Source: Norana najaformis (lineage: Eukaryota > Annelida > Clitellata > Crassiclitellata > Hormogastridae). Taken from it: a DNA stretch of 64,000 nt. The notes under the pieces are model-generated. The model ran no database searches. It was not told the origin of the DNA and saw only the letters and a program-made list of their open reading frames with translations. The position numbers were made by a program, and so were the translations under genes. Of the stretch, positions 4,966-63,378 are shown piece after piece (the first letter of the stretch is position 1; the number at the start of each line of letters is the position of its first letter). The stretch lies in contig OZ029915.1 in assembly GCA_964023275.1 (NCBI GenBank), positions 18,329,775 to 18,393,774 of the forward strand, given 5' to 3'.

Positions 4966-5849
4966 CCTTATGTATGCCAGTGCAAAACCAATTCAAGCAA
5001 CCATTGAGTCTTGCCCCAGGAGAATCATGAAATTTATTCCATCTTCAAAGGGGAGTCAATGGAGTGTGTCTCATATTGTCTGATATATGAGAACTTCAGC
5101 AGATTGGCTAGTAGTTGGGCAGTGCAGTTGATAGATGACAGTGTTGATCAGATCACTTGCTGTTGCAAAAGAACGGAGTAAAACCTCAAAAGGGTAATGA
5201 TCGCATTGAGTTCCACACGTTTTGGGCACAAATCTGTCAAATGTAAACTGTGATCCTGCTGCCATGATGGAGAGGTGAGCAGGTCAGAATCTTGCTGTGT
5301 CGCATCTACAGTGTGATGACTTGTAGTTGCAGATCCCTGTTGTACATCTGGTGCCATGTCTCAACTGCAACCAAGATGCAATGATCATGGCTGGTGTCGG
5401 ATGTCATGCTGTTTTCGACTGAGGCTGTGGATGTTCTACATTCCAAGCCACAGTACAGTTAGTTGCATTGAATTGTCTGCTTGTTGCGTTGTAAAGGCAG
5501 TGTTCCTTTATAATGTAACAAGCTAAGCTTATGAGTCTTGGGAGATTTTCTCCAAAACAACAAACTATTTCTGATGAGGTGTTCGGTGTTATGTTTTCAA
5601 CATATTTGCTGTCGTCTGGATTTAACTAGACAATTTTTAAAACTGTAATGTTGACTGTTTAGTGTGCTATGCTTTATTATAGTCAATGACCGCAGTTAAA
5701 TATGGCTTTAAATATTGTATAAATGTTTTAAATGTCTGTGATTTTTTTGCATTTTAGTCCATTGCTGGTAGGAAAGAATAAATTGGCTTTGTCAGAATTT
5801 TCTGGTTTTAAGCAAGAGTCCTTTATCTGTTATATGGATCAGTTCCAGT

Positions 5850-8472
5850 ATGCCTTCAATTAAAGTTGGAACCAAAGCAAGAGATTGTTTAGTATCGACT
5901 GCTGCAGATTATGTTGTTACAAAAGATGTTAATTTCGTATCAGAGGTTAAAACTGAATTTGTATGCAAAACTGTCACAGATAAAACCTTGGCAACAATAC
6001 CAGAATTTAACATTCGTTGTTTATTGCCAAAACACAGTAGAAAACTACAAGCTAATTCAAGGAAATTTACTGGGATGAATTATTGTGGTGGTTATGATGA
6101 GAACAAAAGAAGAGTACTAAATTCTGCTTCAGCAGTTCCTCGTTGTGATGTTGATGTCGGTCATCTTAAAGGGGAACCTTTAGTAACATCTGTCATGAGC
6201 TCTGATGTGTCGAATGGTACAGCAATGACATTGGAACAGGTAATTCCAGACTTTGCGTTTATGATGAAGACCTGCAGTGAAAACCCTGTTGTCATACAAT
6301 CTATCATGTTGCTGCTCTTGGATTGTTACCCTGAGCTGGCCTCTGACATCATGACTCTTGAACTGGCTGCATTTAGGGAGTTTATGCTGCTAAAGTTAAA
6401 CAAGGACAGGACTGATATACTTGCTGCAGGTGCAGTTTCTCTACACCAGCAAAAACAGAATCGGTTGTTACAACAGAAAGAAACTGCACCTTATCCAAAA
6501 CATGAAAATAGTACATGTCACACTGTTCAATGTCACAGCCGTCCAATATTGTCGGGCATGCATTTTATGCCAAATCCTCCATCTTGCAGCACTGTTGCTC
6601 CTGAACTGATGGGTCATAAAACAGCCTTATCACAGCTTCAGCTTAGTGAATGGTTTAGAAACCCAGTTTCAAGAAGCTGTGCACCACATGCTAGTCTTGG
6701 TCAAGTTCCAGCGACATCAGACATGCTAAGTTTAGTGACTGACGATGTTTCCAGTACTTGTAATAGCTGCGTGAATGGGAATATGAAGATTCAGGATCTT
6801 AACTATCAAGGTCGGAATGTAAATTGTAGATGTCAGAGTGGCAGTTTAATGTCAAGACCATCAGTTGAGTGTAGCAAAAAGATCTGCAGTTCATTGGCAC
6901 ATTCTGTAAACCCAGACTTGTATCAAAAAGATAAAAAATGTTCTGTGAAAATTTGTGAATGTAAAACTAGGAAGACTGATTCTCTGTGTGATAGCATTCA
7001 GTCACACTTGGACCTGCCAAAAGCACACTCAAGACTGAATGTTTCTTGCTCAAACTGTACAGCAAATATTGTTAAAAGTGAAGAAAATGACTTGGTACGT
7101 ACTTCAGATGCAAAATTTCAGCTGGCTAATTATTTATCCATAATAACTGTCAGCAACAGTGGCTTTAAGACTGGCATCTGTTTACCTACAGCATCAGCAG
7201 AATGCAGCAGTTTTGCTTCTGGACATACAAGTGCAGCTACTCTTATTCCTGGTAAGCCCATTGTGTTTTCCCAGAGGAGCAGACCAGTAGCAACAGACTT
7301 CATCAGTGTCGTATCAAAGCCACCAGTTGAATCTTGTCTGGTGACTAATAAAAATTCACAGAGCAGTAGCATTATTAAAACTGAAACAACTTCTACTTTT
7401 AATTACCTGGTAAACCAACATGGAATATCTCATCCTGCTACTACAGATATCATTAAGCCTGATGCAAAGTCAGCAGGCAGTTTTAATTCCACGCTAGATC
7501 ATCAGTCATTTCCTTACATGTGCCAAACAGAATTTCTTAAAACTGAAGCAAAGGCACAGGATGGGTTAAATTTACAAGAAATTATTCAACCATCTGTGAC
7601 AGAAGTTACTAAAACTGAATCGGAGTTGCAGAGTTGTACGCCAAATGGACAAGCAGTTACTCAACCACCAGAAGTCACTGCAACTGGTGCTGTAAAAATT
7701 CAGGCAAAACTGAGCAGCTTAAATAGTATAACTAATAATAACATAGTTTCAGATTCAAAAGTCAGACTTGCCTATCAGAACAACATCAAGCAACTTGGTT
7801 TTTTACCTTTTGATGAACAAAAGAAAGCTGCTGATCAAAAGAATCCAGCAGGATGTGTAAATAATGCAATACCCAGGTTTAAAAGGAAATGTAGAACAGT
7901 AAATGGACCCAGATTTCAGCATAACAGGGAGTCATTTGGTAGTCCAAGAGCTTCTGCCAGAGACTCCAAACCAGTCTTGAATCTGACAAATTTTAATAAA
8001 ACCTCCTCTGTCACTTGTTTAAACAGTTCTTCAATGGATACAGGTCAAGTAAAGTTGTTTAGCAAGAATTCAATGCTTGACACAAAATGTGCACAACTGA
8101 AAGATGAAAGCAATGCAAAGCAATTCAGTAGTGTGCCAAATTTGTTGAAAAACTGTAGTCAAAAGCGACCACCAATGTATAAATGTGCAAGATGGGAGAA
8201 AAAGAACTCGCAGCAAAACGTTTTCCAGTGCTTGTATTATAACCCATCATGTAGAAGCTCTGGATGTGTGATGCCATTAAATGATTACAAGGAAGTTGGA
8301 AGATCTGCAGAGCCCTCAGCTAGGTTGACTACCAAGAGTTGTAAGTTATATAGTGGGAATTGCGATGTCAGATCGGAGTCTGGTGGCTTTTCTTGTTCTA
8401 ACAGAGCAAGAGCCATTAAATCATTAAAGCCTTGCTATGCAGAAAGAAGTTTACCTGCTTCATCTTCACAAG
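5850..8472 (+). CDS. helicase-like gene, exon 1: long disordered N-terminal region
   Basis: This exon gives about 874 residues open from an ATG. The frame closes with a stop 36 bases upstream of a credible acceptor region, so the ATG at 5850 is the simplest start; a 5'-UTR intron ending near 5757 is possible. The exon ends CAA G|GTATTT in phase 1, which matches the next exon. The protein is Ser/Thr/Cys/Lys-rich with no recognisable fold except a short hydrophobic helical patch around residues 130-185 (M-L-L-L-L-D-C-Y-P-E-L). It contains several SUMO-consensus tetrapeptides (V-K-T-E at residues 33-36, then V-K-S-E, I-K-T-E and L-K-T-E). If the intron is retained, translation ends two codons later. 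No function can be assigned to this part alone; it is joined to the helicase domain by phase and spacing. Confidence 0.7.
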
Positions 8473-9458
8473 GTATTTGATTTTATTTAAGTTGGCTGTC
8501 CTTTTAATTTAAAAAATTCAGTAACATATCTGTTTATAAATCAGTAAGTGGGTTGAGTTTCATTGGTAAACATTTGTGACTGTGACTGGTATAACTTTTG
8601 TTATTTATATGAAAAAAACTTGTAACCATTTAATCGTCATGAAAAAAGTAAATAGCAGCTCATAGGTGTATTGATTTTGGTCATTTCTGTTTGCTTTTTT
8701 GGATGTTTGCAGCATTCAACACAGTTGATACTGACATCTCAATAACGCATCTTAACATAACCTGGCCTATGTCAGAAAAATTGATGTGCATTAATTGAAC
8801 TCAGGTAGTGAAATATGTCTCAAAAAGTTCTTTGCATGATTCTCTCAGATATGTTACTGAATTTTTTCTAAATATTTGTTCAGAAACTTGGTCTACATAT
8901 TACAAAAATGTATAACTTTTTACTATTTGTAGTAAATATAATGTAGTTTCATGAAATTATTCAACACTTGCACCCTAATCCAATACAGTATTAAACCAAT
9001 TTTCAAATTTTTCCAACTTTGGCCGGATTTTCTCAGGTTTGATCATATTTTGACAGAAGTAAAGAACTGCCAAGAAGCTGGTTGATTTCAGGTCATTCTG
9101 TTCTTTATCATGCATATTGAAAAGTTCTTTTGAGTTCTTTTAAAAGTTGGCTTTAAAACATCCTTGCCATAATGCATTCTCATAACTATGTTGTGTATGA
9201 TCTGGCTCCCAAGAATGAAATAAATGTACGACTTTTGCCAGCTTTCTATTTCCCAAATTTATAAACTGTGAGAGTTTCTGTGTTCATGACTGAGTGGTCT
9301 GTTACAACTTGCATCTTGTTTTTGGTCATCCACAACCTTTATTACAATTTATTTTGGCCGATGGGAGTAAGAATGCACTTGGAAAACCAGTTAAATAAAT
9401 GATGTTGCAAAATGAGGATGCGAGCAGTGAAAGTGATGGTTGTTGCTGTGCAATTCAG
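8473..9458 (+). other. intron 1 of helicase-like gene
   Basis: AT-rich intron with no repeat terminus or extra exon recognised. It is bounded by GTATTT and a weakly pyrimidine-rich CAATTCAG acceptor. Confidence 0.55.
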
Positions 9459-12937: not shown

Positions 12938-13205
12938 GTGGCAGTTCTGGTGCTGTGTCACACTTACAGGACAATGGTTGATGTGTATGAATGCTTCCGA
13001 AAGTTCAGCGCTTACATGATCAATGTTAGAGTCCACATTTTGCCTGAGAAGTTAGAAAGCAGTCAGTTTCTGCGACTTAGTGAACCTCAGATTCTGATTG
13101 GAAGTGTGCAAAGTGTCCTCCAACTGACAGGTGTACGTCCAGATTTATTTCTTCAACTGAAGCATTTAATTCTTGAAGACTGTGATGTCATGCTCAGGCA
13201 AACTG
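12938..13205 (+). CDS. helicase-like gene, exon 4: RecA1 middle with EDCD
   Basis: This 268-nt exon runs phase 0 to phase 1, between TGCTTTTAG and G|GTGAGA. It starts with a beta strand V-A-V-L-V-L-C-H at the motif Ia position, where the usual PTREL is not conserved. It continues with I-L-I-G-S-V-Q-S-V-L at the motif Ib position and L-K-H-L-I-L-E-D-C-D-V-M-L at motif II. The DEAD tetrapeptide is thus replaced by EDCD. Spacing and hydrophobic pattern fit RecA1 of a DEAD-box protein and, from memory, resemble the divergent helicase domain of TDRD12 (L-I-L-D-E-V-D). The missing catalytic Glu position argues against normal ATP hydrolysis. Confidence 0.75.
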
Positions 13206-13837
13206 GTGAGATAATTTTTTTGGTTATGTTTGCCTCACAAGGTCATCATTTTTTGTGTTTTAGTGTATAAAATGTAAACCCATTAGGTGTTATTGTTTGA
13301 AATGAAAATAAAAATGTGGTATCTCATATTGTATCATGCCATTACTAATGCAATAAAACAAAACTATATTTATTAAGCATCACTTATACCTCAAGTGATG
13401 AATGATAAATACTGCATTATATTGTCAGCCAGGAAGCCAATTCTTTCTTACAGTGGTTGTAAGTACTCTGAGTAGATTTTTAGATAGTTGTATATGAATT
13501 GTTTTACATTACAAGAAATTACAGCAATGTTAGGCTTTGAGGCAGAATTTGGCTGCCTTTGATGCCATGCCTTGACCTTGGCTTTATGACTTCTAGCATC
13601 AGCCTCTTGATATTTGGCCTCATTACTGGTCTACTGGAGTTCTAGTACTGTTATGTTGTTAGCTTATTAAAATACATGACATTTATCAGTGCAGCACAGG
13701 ACTTCTACAACGGAAAGAGGCAAGTTGCAATCAAATAAGGGGCCATTTCATTAATACATTACTAGGCATTGGGATGTTGAGAAATTGCAGATAGCCAGTC
13801 ATTGCTTCTAATGCATTAAATGTAATAACAGGGATTA

Positions 13838-20689: not shown

Positions 20690-21600
20690 AACACTGGCCT
20701 GCAGAGTTAGACTGGGTGATCTGTCTCCAATTCTATTTGCTGTGTATGTTGGTGACATAATTAAAAAGTTAAATCGATCCAATTGGGCAATTATAAATTT
20801 GGGGATTATTCTTGGAGTGTGTCATGTATGCAGATGACCTCCTTTTGATATCAGCTTCACTATGTGATCTTGAAGCAGTGATTGACATTTGCTCTGTGGA
20901 ACTGGAAAGTTTGGATATGAAATTAATTGTAACAAAACCTCAAGTTATAAGGGTTGGATCATTATTTTGTAATATGTGTAAGAATATGACTGTCCATGGA
21001 ACAGAAATCAGTTATGTTGGTACGCTTAAGTACCTCGGCTGTTTTCTGGTTGAAGTCAAGTCATTCACAGTTAGTCTGCATGAAATGTGAGTGAAGTTTT
21101 ATAAAACATTAAATCTTTGCATAGTAAATGCTACAAATTAATGAACATGTCCTATTGCATTTAGTTAGTGCCCACTGACTGTAAACCTTTCCTCCTTTAT
21201 GGAATGGAAGCTATTAGCCTAAAGAATAGTGAGCTGAACTCTTCGGAATACGCTTACAACACTGCCTTATGTAAAATTTTAAAAATCTGTCATAGCAGTG
21301 TTGAGGCTATTCTGCACTTCACCCAGGAGCCCAACATTGAAGACTGGTGGTTGACCAGAAGACTATAATAGTTTCAGAAAAGTTCTTTCAGTTATTATGC
21401 TTTGTCAGTTTTTGTAGGCCTATGTGATTTTCTCAGTTACCATAGCTGATTTAATTTTTTTATACTGTTAGTAGTATAAGATCACAGGCAGGTATGCTGT
21501 ACTTATCAGTTTGCTGTTTTTTTCTTATTTCTAATTTTTTGTCTTTTGTGCTACCATTGTTTGGTGAAATAAAAGATTGATATGTAAATAGATCGTACAA
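20690..21600 (+). mobile_element. LINE RT fragment with 3' end
   Basis: Open stretches encode V-M-Y-A-D-D-L-L-L-I-S near 20820-20855, the reverse-transcriptase catalytic box. These are followed by K-Y-L-G-C-F near 21030 and L-L-Y-G-M-E-A-I near 21190, in the proper order. Stops separate the blocks. The element ends near a GAAATAAAAGATTGATATG segment, a polyadenylation-like 3' end. The catalytic box style (YADDLLLIS) differs from the YADDTQ copies, so this is a second LINE lineage. Confidence 0.75.
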
Positions 21601-24916: not shown

Positions 24917-24923
24917 TATAAAT
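24917..24923 (+). promoter_or_regulatory. TATA box of CA-A (putative)
   Basis: TATAAAT in a GC-containing context lies about 200 bp upstream of the signal-peptide ATG at 25115. A similar arrangement is seen before CA-B. No initiator was identified. Confidence 0.4.
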
Positions 24924-25114: not shown

Positions 25115-25235
25115 ATGGTTTGCAAAAGGTTAACATTGTTATGTTGGTATCTGGTCGGTGTCGTCGTACGAGACTGTCAACCGGTGGAACTGGATGTTAA
25201 CGCGAACCTACAAAAAGAAGGCAAGATTGTGATTT
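25115..25235 (+). CDS. CA-A exon 1: signal peptide (3' end uncertain)
   Basis: The ATG at 25115 opens a classic secretory start: basic residues (V-C-K-R), a hydrophobic core (L-T-L-L-C-W-Y-L-V-G-V-V-V) and then R-D-C-Q-P. It is the best signal-peptide exon upstream of the acidic linker and parallels exon 1 of CA-B. The next exon needs a phase-1 donor. The only in-frame NGT codons offer weak sites (G|GTGTCG after L-V, or T|GTCAAC), so the exact end is unresolved and a further small exon may exist. The membership call is therefore an inference. Confidence 0.45.
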
Positions 25236-27818: not shown

Positions 27819-28799
27819 ATCTTGAACAGACTCTCGAAAATGCTGGCTTACAAGTGGTCGACACACAGCGCACGCCTGTCATTCATCGGAAAAGCAACAC
27901 TAGCGACGACGCTGAGGCCGAACAAACAGAGGCGGATCAGCAAGCTTCTGACAGAAGACGCGCAGATTGGTTTGAGGAGGAGGAGGAGGGGGAGGATGAA
28001 GAGAAGGAGGAGGAATGGTTGCCGGTCTACGACGGAGGAAAGCAAGTGATAAGTGGACAGCATCGAGAAGGAAAACGGGTGAGAAAGGATGGCGACGGGA
28101 AGAATCCCGAACTGCAAGAAGGAGCAACTAATGGACATCTACAGTATACTACTCTTGACCCGGGAAATCAGGGCGTCGCTGCAGAGGAACTAACTGAAGC
28201 TGGAAACGGCGAAACGGATGCATCGGGAGAAGACAAAGAAGGACAGGACGACGATGAAGCATCAAAGGACAGCGCAAAAGTAGAAACTGGATCAGAAGAT
28301 GAACCTGCAAAAGAGGGCGAATTGGTGAAAGAACAGGATGGAGAAGTAAAAGTGAAAGCTGAGGCACCGAGTGATGATGAGGAAGAAGAAACTCCAAAAG
28401 AGGATACCACTCAGAATGGAAAGGAAACGTCAAAGCAAGATGATATCTCAAAAGAAGACGACATTCCAGATAAAAAGGAACCGTCAGACGCAGAGGGGGA
28501 TACTTTGAAAAAAGATGACACTCCAAAGAAAGATGGAACACAAAAGAAAGGTGACATTTCAAATAAGGATGACACTTCAAAGAATGATGAAGCGCAAAAG
28601 AAGAATGAAAAAATAAAACCAACGAGAGAATCAAAAAAAGGTGAGAAACGGAAGGAAGAATCCAAGGACACGAGCAGAAGTAGCAAGACGGCTCAAAACG
28701 AAGAAGGTGATGACAGTGAGAATGGCAGCGCTGAAGAACATCTCAAGAACTTAGACCCGTCGAAAGAACAGCACGAAGAACCTGCCTCTGACGATGATG
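27819..28799 (+). CDS. CA-A exon 2: acidic/lysine-rich linker
   Basis: This 981-nt exon runs phase 1 to phase 1. It follows a very good pyrimidine tract and CCCCAAG acceptor and ends GAT G|GTAGGA. It encodes about 327 residues: a short ordered-looking start (L-E-Q-T-L-E-N-A-G-L-Q-V-V-D), a run of Glu (W-F-E-E-E-E-E-G-E-D), then a long Asp/Glu/Lys/Ser region. In its second half, degenerate D-D-T/I-S/P-K-K units repeat at a spacing of about ten residues. No hydrophobic core is visible, so it should be extended and strongly negative with interspersed lysines. Extracellular CAs can carry acidic extensions (the proteoglycan-like segment of CA IX, or the repeat regions of nacreins). A calcium- or mineral-surface-binding role is possible but inferred. 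Confidence 0.75.
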
Positions 28800-35669: not shown

Positions 35670-37107
<1,438 letters not shown>

Positions 37108-38547: not shown

Positions 38548-38937
38548 GATCCGGTGACGAAGAAGACGAAGGAAACATCTTCGTAAATGAGATACCTGCA
38601 ACAGCATACGACACAAGCGACGATTCACCGGCAGCAGACGAAGAACAGGAGCTTATCCCAGTCCTCGACGACGAAGTTAAGAAACACCAGACAGCCGTGT
38701 TGAAGGAAAACGCAGAGAACGGCAGAGACAAACAACCATCGACAGAAGAAGACAAGAAAGACAGCAAACAAGGTTCCCGTGAATCAGGCGAAGACGACAA
38801 AGAAGGAAGTGGAGAAGCAGAAAATCAAAACAGCGAATCTAAGGACGGAAAAGAGAAGAAAAATGAAAATGAGAAAGACGATACTGCAAATAAGAAGCAG
38901 TTGAAAGGAAGCAAGTGGAAGTATTACGGCGCATACG
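38548..38937 (+). CDS. CA-A exon 3: acidic linker and entry to CA domain
   Basis: This 390-nt exon runs phase 1 to phase 1, from TTGTTGCTTATTGAAG to TAC G|GTAAGC. It codes about 130 residues: G-S-G-D-E-E-D-E-G-N-I-F-V, then Asp/Glu/Lys/Ser-rich sequence, ending K-W-K-Y-Y-G-A-Y-G. The last nine residues begin the alpha-CA fold (W-x-Y...G of the N-terminal lobe). They match the end of CA-B exon 3 (S-W-K-Y-Y-G-V-Y-G), which anchors the frame and the paralogy. Linker exons 2 and 3 are similar in composition. Confidence 0.85.
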
Positions 38938-40294: not shown

Positions 40295-40471
40295 GTCCTG
40301 GCAACTGGTCGAGGGAGTTCAGCGGATGTAACAGCGACCATCGATTTCAGTCGCCGATCAACATCGTTCCGGATCAGGCTCGCTTCGATGACACTCTGAA
40401 AAAGATCTCTTTCTCAATGAAGCACAATGAGAAGCCGTGCAACAGCAGACTGTTTAACGACGCACAAACAG
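40295..40471 (+). CDS. CA-A exon 4: first CA-domain exon, His64 to Gln
   Basis: This 177-nt exon runs phase 1 to phase 1, between TTGGCAG and G|GTCTTC. It encodes G-P-G-N-W, C-N-S-D-H-R-F-Q-S-P-I-N-I and finally R-L-F-N-D-A-Q-T. This is the segment G-P-x-x-W ... R-Q-S-P-I-x-I ... N-N-G-H of alpha-carbonic anhydrases. The Cys before S-D-H-R is the partner expected for the conserved extracellular disulfide; its mate is in exon 7. At the proton-shuttle position (His64 of human CA II) this protein has Gln, whereas CA-B has N-N-G-H-T. Confidence 0.9.
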
Positions 40472-40950
40472 GTCTTCTAAAAGTTTCATATGCCTGCCTA
40501 TGTTTATATGCTTTCTACTGCTTTAACACAGACAACTCTGCTGAAAAGCTTGGTCTTTATATGGATTGCCGGCTAATTACAGACTTATTTATAATTTCAT
40601 TTCTAAAATACTTGAACGCCTATTTTCGTAAGTTCTTAGGGCCGTGTAACACTTCTTGTTAAGAGTTCCTCGTCCATACTGCTTTAAGAATGAAATGACG
40701 ATAGCCGAATGCACGTTCGCAGCACACGATTACGCTTTGTCGGCTTCGGCAATAAGTGTCCAAATGCCGTACAGAAACGCCAGAAATGCAAAACAGACTT
40801 TAAAAATAACGTCTTTACGCAAAACTTGGACACGTTGTACCGTTGAACATACAAGAATTATTGAGCAAATTTCGCATTGACGAACTAATCTGAAATGTAA
40901 ATGAACCAGATGCTCAACAACGCTATCGACAGATGGCATAGGCTTAAGAC

Positions 40951-41050
40951 AGTGGCGGGTTTAGCTATAGGCGTGGGGGCGGTTCGCCCTGCCGCGCCCT
41001 TCATGGTGGACTGCCAGAAGGTGGGGCCCCTCTGAAAATGCTATCCCCCA
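40951..41050 (+). mobile_element. DNA-transposon end remnant (hAT-like)
   Basis: CAGTGGCGGGTTTAGCTATA, then a G-rich stretch and GTGGGGCCCC. The CAGTGGCG start is shared, inverted, with the remnant ending at 16904. It lies in the 684-bp intron between CA-A exons 4 and 5. Confidence 0.4.
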
Positions 41051-41155
41051 CGCAAGCAATCCTAGAGCCCCCAATGCCTTAAGATATATGGAAATACTTG
41101 GGGTTAGCCTGTATTCGGGGTCACACAGTTGCATTTGCGCATTTGTTTTATTTAG

Positions 41156-41298
41156 CGAAAGTGATTTTCGAGAACATGGTCATACACGTTATTGGTCTGG
41201 ACAAGAGCTACCAAGTGGCTGAGGTGCAGTTCCACTGGGGAAACACGAACAACGCTGGCTCAGAACACATAATCGCCAGCAAAAGATATCCACTGGAA
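41156..41298 (+). CDS. CA-A exon 5: zinc-site exon with His94 to Gln
   Basis: This 143-nt exon runs phase 1 to phase 0, from TTTATTTAG to GAA|GTCAGC. It encodes the G-L-x-x-x-Y-x-x-A-E-V-Q-F-H-W-G strand and G-S-E-H-I-I...K-R-Y-P-L-E. Aligned without gaps to A-Q-F-H-F-H-W-G of active enzymes, the first zinc ligand (His94) is Gln, His96 is kept, and the Glu of G-S-E-H (E106) is kept. Exon length and phases equal those I recall for the equivalent exon of vertebrate CA IX. A one-ligand-short site predicts poor or no zinc binding, as in CA-related proteins. Confidence 0.9.
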
Positions 41299-41976: not shown

Positions 41977-42465
41977 AGGTACGAGTCGGTATTAAGAACT
42001 TACACCGAATTACATGAAATTTTACCTGGTGATAGATCTCAACTTAGATCGTCGAACGCGCCTATTCCCGTCTTGCGGAAACGGCGAAAATGACAAAAAA
42101 ATTAATTCGATTATCGTTTTATAAATAAGAAAACCGATAATCGTTTTCGAAACCGATTATCGGATTTCCGAATATCGTTTAACATCCCTACTGGTAGCGC
42201 AAGGGCATCTCTTAGTTTTGAAGGTGGCCTAGAACCAGCCGATACCTTACGACTGATATCTGCGTATGACCACTTCCGGAAATGTGTAAACATACATGGC
42301 TTCGACCGTTTCCAAATGAGGAAAAGCCTGGCTTTGAAAATTCATAAAAAATCCCGGATCGTTTCCGCAAGACGGGAATAGGTGCGTTCGACGACCTAAG
42401 TTGAGATCTATCACCAGATAAAATTTCATGTAATTCTATGTAAGTTCTTAATACCGACTCGTACC
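41977..42465. mobile_element. foldback MITE with 8-bp target duplication
   Basis: Terminal inverted repeats of about 108 bp (41977-42085 and about 42357-42465) start GGTACGAGTCGGTATTAAGA, with few mismatches. CCTTCTAA flanks the element directly on both sides (41969-41976 and 42466-42473). The middle holds further small palindromes built on CCGATAATCG. Non-autonomous; the 8-bp duplication suits hAT, Merlin or P-type transposases, and the GG terminus is more like Merlin than hAT. It lies in intron 5 of CA-A. Confidence 0.9.
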
Positions 42466-44089: not shown

Positions 44090-44870
44090 TTTAAGCCATT
44101 CAAACTGCTTGAGATGAGGAGGGCTTAGTAACCACCATCCAGTACTGCACCTCCTCAAAGGCACTGGACAACAGATGCACAGACGAGTGAAAAGATTAAC
44201 TGCCAAACGAAATGAAAATTTGAGTATCATCTACATAGAAATGGTACCCTAGTAAATGATTGTCAAGCAGTGCACCTAGTTGTGTGGTGTATAGTGTAAA
44301 CAAAAGAGGACCGAGCACAGAAACCTGCGAGCCGCCATATGTCAACAATGCCCTAGATGAATAATTACCACATGAATACGCCGAATGACTGTGTAGACTG
44401 AGATAGATAGCAAACCAATGCAGGGCGGGACCAGAAACCTAAAACCATTGTTGGAGATGATGCAAAAGAAGAGAATGGTCTACAACAGTAAAAGCGTGAG
44501 ACAAGTCAAGAACAAGCGCTAATACTGTATCCCTATTCATAGAGCACATGATGTCAAAATGAACAGCTAGAAGTGCGGATTCCTTCGAATGAAACTCGCG
44601 ATATGCTAATCGAAAGGGGATATTAGTGAATTGGAAGGTAGGTGAGTTTGCACGCGATTCATAACTATACCATTAGAGAATTTTAGATACAAAATTCAAA
44701 ATTTAGATAGGTCGGTAATGAGACAAGTCACCAGGGTCAACCGATGGTTTCTTTAGGAGAAATAATGACCATGCCATGAGCAAAGACAGGCGGGAAGGAT
44801 CCCTCATACAACTATCATAGTTTTGGGTTCTGCCACCAACTGTGGTAGAATGACATTCTGTTTCGCATTG
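44090..44870 (-). mobile_element. LINE RT fragment (degenerate)
   Basis: Read on the minus strand: K-K-P-S-V-D-P-G-D-L-S-H-Y-R-P-I near 44740, S-V-L-G-P-L-L-F-T-L-Y near 44310, and F-Y-V-D-D-T-Q-I-F near 44225-44250. This is the complete motif order of a CR1/L2-like reverse transcriptase with the catalytic Y-V-D-D box. Stops and a frame change disable it. The open minus-strand stretch at 45145-45495 could be its 5' side but shows no recognised domain. Confidence 0.85.
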
Positions 44871-46412
44871 TACCTTTACATCGTTTATTAGAGATTCACT
44901 TTCAATCAGTAGTAACGCGAGCGAGATTCTAGTTCAATTGTGGAGCAAGCCACTTAGTCTACGACAAACTTTAGACTACTCTACCCATGACGATTACTGT
45001 AGCGCCAGAAGACGCTAGACTATCTTCTCTACATTTTACTACGACCTATCTGCTCGATGTCTGAACTCCGACTGCTTCTCGATGAGCGAATCTCTCTCTG
45101 ACGAGACTCACGTGCAGTTCTCCCAGTCTGCACCTTCATCTTGGTCAAACGGCCGAGCAGTCCTCCTCTTCTGGTCTTCTCTGCGGATTGACTGACTGAC
45201 CCCTGTGTGCAGTCTGCGAGCTCTTTTCTACCTGAATCCTCTGAACTCTGGGCGCATTCCTTCTGGGCCGGTCAGTACCCAAGACCCGAGCTGACATCAG
45301 CTGTCGTGTGCCTTTTGGTTCTGATTCTCCGAAGTCAATTGTATAGCTGTGGACATCCATCTGGCTATCACGTGGACCTCTCGTGCTTAGCTGCAAAGCC
45401 CCCTGATGTACCTGGAGATTGCTTGCTACCTGTGGATTGCTCAGCTTACCCCAGCGGAATCCTTTTGACGAAGCTACACTCCTGCTGCATTCCATAGCTC
45501 ACCTGCATTGCTACCAACAATAGCCCTTCCACACAGTGTAACTTGCGGCCCGTCCGTTTCTAAGAATCTGACCTCTGTAGCTTAGGGCTACTTGCTAGCT
45601 GTGTTGCTGCTCTGAACTAAGGTCCTAATAAATCATTCGCCTCACTGCCTACGCACTGGCCAGCAACGACTACTGAGTAAGTCTGGTAATCTACTGACGA
45701 CTACTACTACTTTACTTACTTACAAATATACCTGAACTAGCTCGGTTATACAACGATAAATTGATTATTTATGTAATGGTTGGACCCAGGACACGAAAAC
45801 ACACTTTCATAAGAGATGTAGGAAAACTGGCAAGAATTGAAAACTTTTATTCCAATCTAAAAAATTAAGGAACGCCGACAGTAACATGACCCATTTCAGT
45901 TGGGCAGACATTGTAGGGAATCAACTTGCAATCGATTCGAACCAAGTAACAACTATGAAGACGTGACCTAATTTGGCAAAGGAAGGAATATAACGTTCAC
46001 CTTATGGGCGACACATAAGCATAGAAAGCTAAATTGTGCCAGCCACGTTAGAGTGGATCTATACCGAGACAGTTATAGAGCAGTGGGGATACTTGTTGCA
46101 CGGAACAAACTAGATCAGCAGGTGAGACCACTCGGCTATAGAGGGCGATAATACAAAGTATCTGTCCAAATAAAGATTAATTTATATCGAAGCACGACGA
46201 TAGTTAAATGAAGTCGACTAACAGATTAATGGCGAACGATTTGATTGACAGATGCAAGTATTGTGCTACGACGAAGAGAATTTTCCGGATCTCATGGAAG
46301 CTGAATGGATGGCCGAAAACACATCATATACAATTGTCGTGCTTGCCACGCTCTTTGAGGTACTTCGATCGAAAGCACTTTGTTCACACAGCAATCGAAG
46401 ATAAGCTGCTCT

Positions 46413-46414
<2 letters not shown>

Positions 46415-46475
<61 letters not shown>
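46415..46475. repeat. (CAT)n microsatellite
   Basis: Twenty CAT/ATC units in uninterrupted succession, followed by a TTA/TAG/GTG region to about 46560. Confidence 0.95.
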
Positions 46476-47569: not shown

Positions 47570-47636
47570 CTGTCTAACCAAGACAATCCTCTGCTTAGTT
47601 CAGTCGTGGAGAATCTCAAATCAATTCAGTCGCCAG
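47570..47636 (+). CDS. CA-A exon 6
   Basis: This 67-nt exon runs phase 0 to phase 1, from TGTTTTCAG to CCA G|GTCAGT. It encodes L-S-N-Q-D-N-P-L-L-S-S-V-V-E-N-L-K-S-I. This is the helix found after the central strand in alpha-CAs (N-P-A-x-Q-x-V-x-x-A-L-x-x-I). Length and phases match the equivalent exon of extracellular vertebrate CAs as I recall them. Its phase-0 start also equals the phase-0 end of exon 5, so the two can be joined directly in frame. Confidence 0.85.
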
Positions 47637-50586: not shown

Positions 50587-50744
50587 GTCAAAACATCTCC
50601 ATTCCGTCTCTGAAATTGGGTGGTCTCCTTCCGAAGAAAAGCGATTACTTCTATAGGTACTCTGGCTCACTGACATCTCCACCTTGCCAGGCAGAAGCTG
50701 AATGGATCGTCTTTCACGAACACCAGACTGTTTCACCATCTCAA
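50587..50744 (+). CDS. CA-A exon 7: S-L-T-S-P-P-C exon
   Basis: This 158-nt exon runs phase 1 to phase 0, from GTTTCAG to CAA|GTACGT. It encodes L-G-G-L-L-P-K, Y-F-Y-R-Y-S-G-S-L-T-S-P-P-C and E-W-I-V-F-H-E-H-Q. The Thr of S-L-T (T199 of CA II) is kept, so the substrate-orienting part of the site survives although two His positions are lost. The Cys of P-P-C is the expected disulfide partner of the Cys in exon 4, as in secreted and membrane CAs. Length and phase again match extracellular vertebrate CAs. Confidence 0.9.
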
Positions 50745-52238: not shown

Positions 52239-52514
52239 TTAGAAAAATTCCGGCAGCTGCACGAAGAGGAATTCGAAGACGGGAACTACACAGTAGTCAA
52301 CTACAACTGGCGTCCAATCCAACCGTTAACCGGCCGAGTTGTTACTCGCAGTTTTCCCATCCCTAAGAAGGGGAATCCCAACACGCAGAAGCCTCGCTCT
52401 GGCAAAGTATCCATGTCATCTTCTCATCTGATTCGAGCGATAGACGTTTCTGTATACATACTGCTCTTCGTGTCTAGTTTTTTCTTGGTTAGAGCAGAGC
52501 TTTGCGTAAGTTAG
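52239..52514 (+). CDS. CA-A exon 8: CA C-terminus and hydrophobic tail
   Basis: The exon starts in phase 0 after CTGTTTCCAG and reads L-E-K-F-R-Q-L, then Y-N-W-R-P-I-Q-P-L-x-x-R-V-V, the closing segment of alpha-CAs. A basic/polar stretch (F-P-I-P-K-K-G-N-P-N-T) leads to a hydrophobic tail (V-S-V-Y-I-L-L-F-V-S-S-F-F-L-V), seven more residues and a stop at 52512-52514. The tail is short and close to the C-terminus. It could be a GPI-anchor signal after the S-S-S region or a single membrane span with a tiny cytoplasmic end. If alternatively spliced, a donor GTATCC near 52407 would remove the tail. Confidence 0.85.
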   Translation, partial: LEKFRQLHEEEFEDGNYTVVNYNWRPIQPLTGRVVTRSFPIPKKGNPNTQKPRSGKVSMSSSHLIRAIDVSVYILLFVSSFFLVRAELCVS

Positions 52515-61137: not shown

Positions 61138-61315
61138 TTGGGTGAGAGAAAGAGGAACTGGAGAAGCGTAGAAGGAGCCGTCGGTCATGAGAACGAAACC
61201 TATCATGAGAATGATATGGCAGCTGACCAGGAACTCGATCATCATGACAAAGACACGAGTCACGAGGAACATCACGACGACCACGCACACTCATGGAAAT
61301 ACTACGGCGTCTACG
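61138..61315 (+). CDS. CA-B exon 3: His/Asp/Glu-rich linker and CA entry
   Basis: This 178-nt exon runs phase 0 to phase 1, from AACAAAAAG to TAC G|GTAAGT. It starts L-G-E-R-K-R-N-W-R and becomes His-, Asp- and Glu-rich (H-E-N-E-T-Y-H-E-N-D, then D-H-H-D-K-D, then H-E-E-H-H-D-D-H-A-H). It closes with S-W-K-Y-Y-G-V-Y-G, the same CA-domain entry as CA-A exon 3. Nine His fall within about 38 residues directly before the CA fold. This pattern could bind Zn2+ or other divalent metals; that is inference. The acceptor has a modest pyrimidine tract, so the exact first residue may differ. Confidence 0.75.
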
Positions 61316-63201: not shown

Positions 63202-63378
63202 GTCCAAGCAACTGGTCGCTGGTGGCTCCTGACTGCAGCAGTGATCGACCGAGACAGACGCCGATCGACATTCAGAAGACCTTGACCGAACTGGATGAAA
63301 CAATGACAGACATCAGCCTGACTGTCAGTGACCCACAACCAGACGAAAAGGTCACCATGGCCAACAATGGACACACAG
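63202..63378 (+). CDS. CA-B exon 4: first CA-domain exon
   Basis: This 177-nt exon runs phase 1 to phase 1, between CGAATGTAG and ACA G|GTAAGC, identical in length and phase to CA-A exon 4. It encodes G-P-S-N-W, P-D-C-S-S-D-R-P-R-Q-T-P-I-D-I and ends A-N-N-G-H-T. The R-Q-T-P-I-D-I motif and the N-N-G-H proton-shuttle histidine are intact, so this paralogue may be a working enzyme, unlike CA-A. The Cys before S-S-D matches the extracellular disulfide position. The zinc-ligand exon lies beyond the window. Confidence 0.9.

Follow-up and report, generated by a model that had tools for sequence, protein, structure and literature searches.

The window analysed here (the whole stretch of 64,000 nucleotides from Norana najaformis contig OZ029915.1) carries an apparently intact gene, CA-A, whose carbonic anhydrase (CA) domain lacks the proton shuttle and retains one zinc ligand of three, the zinc triad now being Gln-His-Gln. 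Based on its sequence features, we propose that CA-A encodes an extracellular membrane-anchored CA-related protein (CARP), composed of a signal peptide, a long acidic arm, a Gln-His-Gln CA fold without His64, and a hydrophobic anchor. We estimate the probability of this reading at about 75%. Since the zinc site lacks two of three histidines as well as the proton shuttle, such a protein would more likely bind or sense than make bicarbonate. CA-A appears to be inactive on these grounds, with the qualification that a site altered from His to Gln can still retain zinc and part of its activity. A role in binding or structure is suggested.

Gene structure of CA-A

CA-A was modelled as nine exons on the forward strand (25115-52514) that together encode 801 residues, with compatible splice phases and no internal stops in the spliced translation. 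The exons, and a candidate promoter element upstream of them, are:

24917..24922 (+), TATAAA, possible core promoter element 198 bp 5' of the CA-A ATG
25115..25220 (+), exon 1, ATG and signal-peptide-like start (MVCKRLTLLCWYLVGVVVRDC...) with a GC donor; putative link, from the splice phase (1)
27819..28799 (+), exon 2, acidic D/E/K-rich stretch; putative link, from phase and composition
38548..38937 (+), exon 3, acidic stretch, then in the same frame KWKYYGAY, where the CA domain begins
40295..40471 (+), exon 4, CA domain with Cys23 and NDAQ (His64 to Gln), reading ...LFNDAQT (alignment)
41156..41298 (+), exon 5, ...EVQFHWG (His94 to Gln, His96 kept), GSEH (Glu106) and Glu117 (alignment)
46252..46359 (+), exon 6, MQVLCYDEENF..., Gln at 119 (alignment)
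47570..47636 (+), exon 7, short alpha-CA exon LSNQDNPLLSSVVENLKSIQSP (exon-candidate scoring)
50587..50744 (+), exon 8, SGSLTSPPC (Thr199, Ser200, Cys203) and Trp209 (alignment)
52239..52514 (+), exon 9, end of the CA domain (NWRPIQPL), linker, hydrophobic tail VSVYILLFVSSFFLV and stop (spliced frame)

Support is good for exons 3 to 9: exon 3 runs in frame into KWKYYGAY, exons 4-6, 8 and 9 match CA family members, and exon 7 scored above its competitors. Scored against alpha-CA fragments, exon 7 reached 21.75 and ranked first among the 67 candidates of its intron (7.0 for the next independent candidate). It also topped all 1231 candidates on the + strand (next 17.25) and exceeded every one of the 1026 - strand candidates, whose highest score was 14.5. 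It also sits at the expected place and phase. A later acceptor for exon 5 was rejected, as the upstream AG gives the usual length after position 65 in the alignment. Exons 1 and 2 probably belong to the same gene, judging from phase, composition and the signal-peptide-like start, and exon 1 requires the GC donor.

The CA domain of CA-A is complete (PF00194, profile 2-254 of 254, 222.1 bits, E 1.2e-65) and is 266 residues long. It is preceded by an acidic arm (residues 22-484, 463 residues) with 17.3% Glu, 13.2% Asp and 12.1% Lys and a computed pI of 4.07. Within exon 2, a degenerate 18-bp tandem repeat was found at 28511-28590 (4.4 copies, 72% matches). The best 19-residue Kyte-Doolittle mean of the C-terminal tail is 2.02, as would suit either a membrane span or a GPI signal.

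The introns of CA-A contain (TATC)n at 36749-37107 (about 89 copies, 94% matches), perfect (TCA)n at 46414-46475 (about 21 copies) and, in intron 5, an inverted repeat at 41978-42465 with arms of 106 nt that are 95% complementary and 276 nt apart, which looks like a small foldback element. Weak reverse transcriptase (RVT_1) matches at 20797-21087 (+, 24.8 bits) and 44199-44438 (-, 18.2 bits; Pfam cut-off 29.6) are probable retroelement remnants. Elsewhere in the window, an open frame at 12938-13267 matched a DEAD-box helicase with 26.3 bits (cut-off 26) and is probably part of a neighbouring gene; a second open frame at 5772-8477, with 902 residues and without a Pfam match at E 0.01, is possibly a large exon. 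Rfam, applied to the window with gathering cut-offs, returned nothing.

The active site

The CA-A domain was aligned (MAFFT) with 11 human CA-family domains, and the same 12 rows were used for the tree described below. In this alignment CA-A has W5, Y7, C23, Q64, Q94, H96, E106, H107, E117, Q119, T199, S200, C203 and W209. The Cys23 and Cys203 pair of extracellular CAs is hence present, and the shuttle and zinc positions are encoded as follows:

40465..40467 (+), codon CAA, Gln at position 64 (proton-shuttle position)
41227..41229 (+), codon CAG, Gln at position 94 (zinc ligand 1 lost)
41233..41235 (+), codon CAC, His at position 96 (zinc ligand 2 kept)
46255..46257 (+), codon CAA, Gln at position 119 (zinc ligand 3 lost)

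The initial annotation had claimed the loss of the His64 and His94 positions, reading N-D-A-Q at the first and V-Q-F-H-W-G at the second, and had proposed a family alignment as a check. Both losses were borne out by the alignment, which added Gln119 to them. Exon 6 opens with ATG CAA and its Gln lies two residues past Glu117, so His119 is Gln as well. The loss of the site was thus understated in that annotation, which had missed the second zinc ligand. The same annotation had the equivalents of His96, Glu106 and Thr199 as kept, in agreement with the aligned rows; Thr199 (ACA, 50673-50675) lies outside the piece it described (40295-41298), in exon 8.

Among the 12 aligned rows, the Gln-His-Gln triplet is unique to CA-A. 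The row of RPTP-gamma has K64, E94, H96 and Q119 and that of RPTP-zeta K64, T94, H96 and Q119, while CA10 (R64, R94, H96, Q119) and CA11 (R64, R94, L96, Q119) carry Arg at the first two positions. CA8 has R94 alongside retained H64 and H119, and all four histidines (H64, H94, H96, H119) are kept in the remaining six rows. Q119 of CA-A is common to four of the five inactive rows. Of the four histidines that mark a catalytic membrane CA of the IX/XII/XIV type (His94, His96, His119 and His64), CA-A has His96 alone. Cys23, Cys203 and a hydrophobic C-terminal tail, a putative anchor, are features of that type which CA-A does have. A CARP in the broad sense has a complete alpha-CA domain, has lost at least one zinc-binding His and does not hydrate CO2; CA-A has such a domain, has lost two of these His, at 94 and 119, and would probably not hydrate CO2. 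The Arg94 and Gln119 combination of CARPs X and XI is not found, CA-A having Gln94 with Gln119.

We do not regard the substitutions as chance, because both exons in which Gln64 and Gln94 were read fall within a model that has a full-length CA domain and compatible splice phases. Decay of the gene into a pseudogene, or a mistake in the assembly, could also be invoked to explain them, and the long branch of CA-A (1.83 in the 12-row tree) would fit this, as would the simple repeats and the inverted repeat with 106-nt arms in its introns. However, the model has 801 open codons in nine exons, its splice sites are usable, residues of the fold are conserved, and three separate active-site His changes occurred with His96 and His107 left unchanged. 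We give decay or error only the slightest chance, and a pseudogene is unlikely in view of the open nine-exon frame.

It is also conceivable that the Gln-His-Gln site still binds zinc via carboxamide ligands, which would make CA-A a slow but real CA or esterase, like the eta-class CAs (proposed His-His-Gln) or perhaps the mussel protein MgNACR. Consistent with this, all three lost histidines are now Gln, with codons (CAA/CAG) that are each one base away from those of His (CAC/CAT), and Glu106, Glu117 and Thr199 are retained. CA II His119Gln is said to stay active, and two His and one Gln have been proposed as ligands in eta-CAs (both as stated in PMC8843172). MgNACR, in which one ligand is His and two are Gln, is presented in PMC6639325 as the most abundant CA transcript of the mantle edge; that source also reports CA activity in mussel mantle extracts, where two of the three His are missing from the most abundant CA transcript, but could not assign the activity to that protein. 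On the other hand, two ligands of CA-A changed together and the proton shuttle was lost too. Moreover, the zinc probability predicted for H119Q (0.38) is the second lowest of the CA II mutants discussed for Metal3D (PMC10175565), and RPTP CA-like domains with one ligand left are described as inactive in PMC11215419. We consider a slow enzyme to be an unlikely outcome.

Relatives of CA-A and the neighbouring CA-B

The best PDB matches of the CA-A domain, among the best 60 of 242, were RPTP-gamma (147 bits), RPTP-zeta (129.8), CA14 (127.6) and CA12 (124.7). With all columns included, the 12-row tree joined CA-A to PTPRG/PTPRZ at 90/89 (not starred). When the columns around 64, 94, 106, 119 and 199 were masked, this branch was not recovered and CA-A was unresolved among the extracellular CAs. 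Its position on the extracellular-CA side of the tree was found with all columns (97/97) and with masked columns (91/93). AU tests on all columns (uncorrected p) rejected placement of CA-A with CA14 (0.010), CA12 (0.011), CA6 (0.027), CA8 (0.042) and CA2 (0.049), did not reject CA9 (0.088) or CA4 (0.11), and were marginal for CA10+CA11 (0.05). With masked columns, CA14 (0.028) and CA12 (0.035) were rejected and CA4 (0.44) was not. A scan of prokaryote contigs gave seven pattern matches, none of which was confirmed as a relative.

These results bear on the possibility that CA-A belongs to an invertebrate RPTP-gamma/zeta orthologue (an R5 receptor tyrosine phosphatase), either as its CA-like domain or as a truncated form of it. 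The PDB ranking and the all-column grouping agree with this, as do the common Gln119, the resemblance of PLEMQVLCYD in CA-A to PLEMQIYCFD in RPTP-zeta, and an identity to RPTP-zeta of 35.4% across the first 65 residues compared, which is close to the figure for CA-B given below. But the frame of CA-A closes with a hydrophobic tail and a stop at 52514, the acidic arm precedes the CA domain, and the grouping was not recovered once the active-site columns were masked. In addition, tblastn searches for FN3 and PTP on both strands of the window returned nothing significant (the lowest E was 0.89 for D1, in a match with a stop, and 2.3 for FN3), and none of three loose motif hits in the window carried the PTP signature. 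We did not accept R5 membership, because the window has no significant FN3/PTP match (exons past its end being possible) and the masked tree does not recover the grouping; this origin is very improbable.

A second CA gene, CA-B, lies on the same strand, its first exon found being 8.6 kb downstream of CA-A. The exons recognized are:

61138..61315 (+, start uncertain), His/Asp/Glu-rich stretch (HHDKDTSHEEHHDDHAH) ending SWKYYGVY
63202..63378 (+, about), exon with NNGHT, His64 kept (CAC, 63372-63374)

The claim in the initial annotation that CA-B retains His64 was therefore confirmed. Between 63202-63378 and the window end no further CA-B exons were found, and the zinc ligands fall outside the window. 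CA-A and CA-B have in common W-K-Y-Y-G-x-Y-G and a charged exon directly before the domain. Both also carry two inserted residues between Cys23 and the QSP motif, which none of the 11 references has. Over 67 residues, identity of CA-A was 35.8% to CA-B, narrowly ahead of RPTP-zeta (35.4%), and 20.6-30.8% to the other references (ten in number). PDB matches of the CA-B stretch were about equal for CA12 (25.3 bits) and RPTP-gamma (24.5 bits). Altogether, CA-A and CA-B are probably tandem relatives, on a comparison that spans 67 residues, which is few. The His/Asp/Glu-rich exon of CA-B at 61138-61315 could be a metal-binding arm, in contrast to the Glu/Asp/Lys arm of CA-A.

Proposed role and comparison with known systems

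That CA-A is a CA-related, probably acatalytic protein had already been suggested in the initial annotation, and the CARP reading is strengthened by His119Gln, by the inactive RPTP-gamma/zeta domains as best PDB matches, and by the tandem CARPs of cnidarians. CA-A would be exported and tethered to the membrane by its tail. Its site would hold zinc poorly or not at all, and CO2 hydration at a useful rate would not be expected. The gene may have originated by local duplication from a secreted or membrane CA like CA-B, after which catalysis was lost. By comparison with the RPTPs, the CA fold could serve as a cell-surface binding or sensing module, either for a partner protein or for CO2/bicarbonate in the emptied pocket. 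The acidic arm might act as a proton or calcium buffer near the surface, similar to the non-catalytic proton antenna proposed for CA9.

A more specific idea, which we regard as a rather long shot, is that CA-A is a dead-enzyme partner of the neighbouring CA. Its zinc-free Gln pocket would then be under selection as a CO2/bicarbonate sensor or competitor, and its 463-residue acidic proton/calcium antenna would represent the non-catalytic half of CA9 as a separate protein. Under the CARP reading, CA-A is a further extracellular CA without a metal site, adjoining a relative that retains at least the proton shuttle, and among its changes is once more the Gln at position 119 that RPTP-gamma/zeta and CARP X/XI also have. 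Should the pocket be under selection rather than in decay, tandem pairs of this kind could test CO2/bicarbonate sensing, competition with active CAs, and non-catalytic proton/calcium carriage. If it is ordinary, CA-A is one more repeatedly invented secreted CARP.

CA-A resembles RPTP-gamma/zeta in its extracellular alpha-CA fold, Cys23/Cys203, His96, Gln119 and altered positions 64 and 94, but differs in having Gln at both of the latter (K64 and E or T94 in the RPTPs), an acidic arm before the domain, and no significant FN3/phosphatase match in the window. In PMC11215419 the CA-like domains of RPTPs, having neither the shuttle nor more than one of the zinc His, are described as inactive and proposed as CO2 or bicarbonate binders. 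CARPs VIII, X and XI are reported to be inactive via lost zinc His (PMC2873310). CA10 and CA11 share with CA-A the extracellular type and the loss of zinc-site His including Gln119; however, they have Arg94, and CA-A groups with extracellular CAs (97/97) while its placement with CA10/CA11 is marginally rejected (AU p 0.05).

The nacrein-like mussel CA MgNACR and other NACR proteins also have zinc ligands changed from His to Gln, two of these being Gln in MgNACR (PMC6639325), which retains the first zinc His whereas CA-A retains the second. The Gly-X-Asn repeat insert of nacrein is absent from the 266-residue CA-A domain in the alignment. Compared with CA IX, XII and XIV, in which the zinc triad and His64 are intact, CA-A has lost both and bears an arm of 463 residues. 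The PG region of CA IX is acidic. CA-A and CA IX are alike in having a PG-like N-terminal region, a CA domain and a single C-terminal anchor, and the N-terminal PG domain, which according to PMC7051959 no CA other than CA9 possesses, has been proposed there as a proton buffer and possible catalysis-independent proton antenna.

Secreted or membrane invertebrate CARPs (for example coral SpiCA9 and SpiCA14, C. rubrum CruCA2, sponge SciCA4) have, like CA-A, lost zinc His, either one or two of them. SciCA4 has lost two His and has a terminal transmembrane domain according to PMC4265532, comparable to the two lost ligands and hydrophobic tail of CA-A. As reported in PMC4981384, secreted CARPs were reinvented several times in cnidarians and some CARPs lie in tandem with alpha-CAs (SpiCA14, SpiCA9 and Nve6), as CA-A lies beside CA-B, and a role as acatalytic competitors was suggested. 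The same source gives R-H-Q as a common cnidarian CARP triplet, especially in cytosolic forms, with R/H/Y-H/R-Q/H covering most CARPs; CA-A has Q-H-Q with a long acidic arm. In the literature listings searched, no title or abstract opening describes a CARP with the acidic-arm layout of CA-A, which does not prove that none exists. The long acidic arm is unusual among CA-related proteins of known kind. Since tandem secreted CARPs have been published in corals, this kind of CARP is already known, and CA-A represents a variant of known CARPs in that it combines Gln-His-Gln, a long CA9-like acidic arm and an anchor next to a relative with His64.
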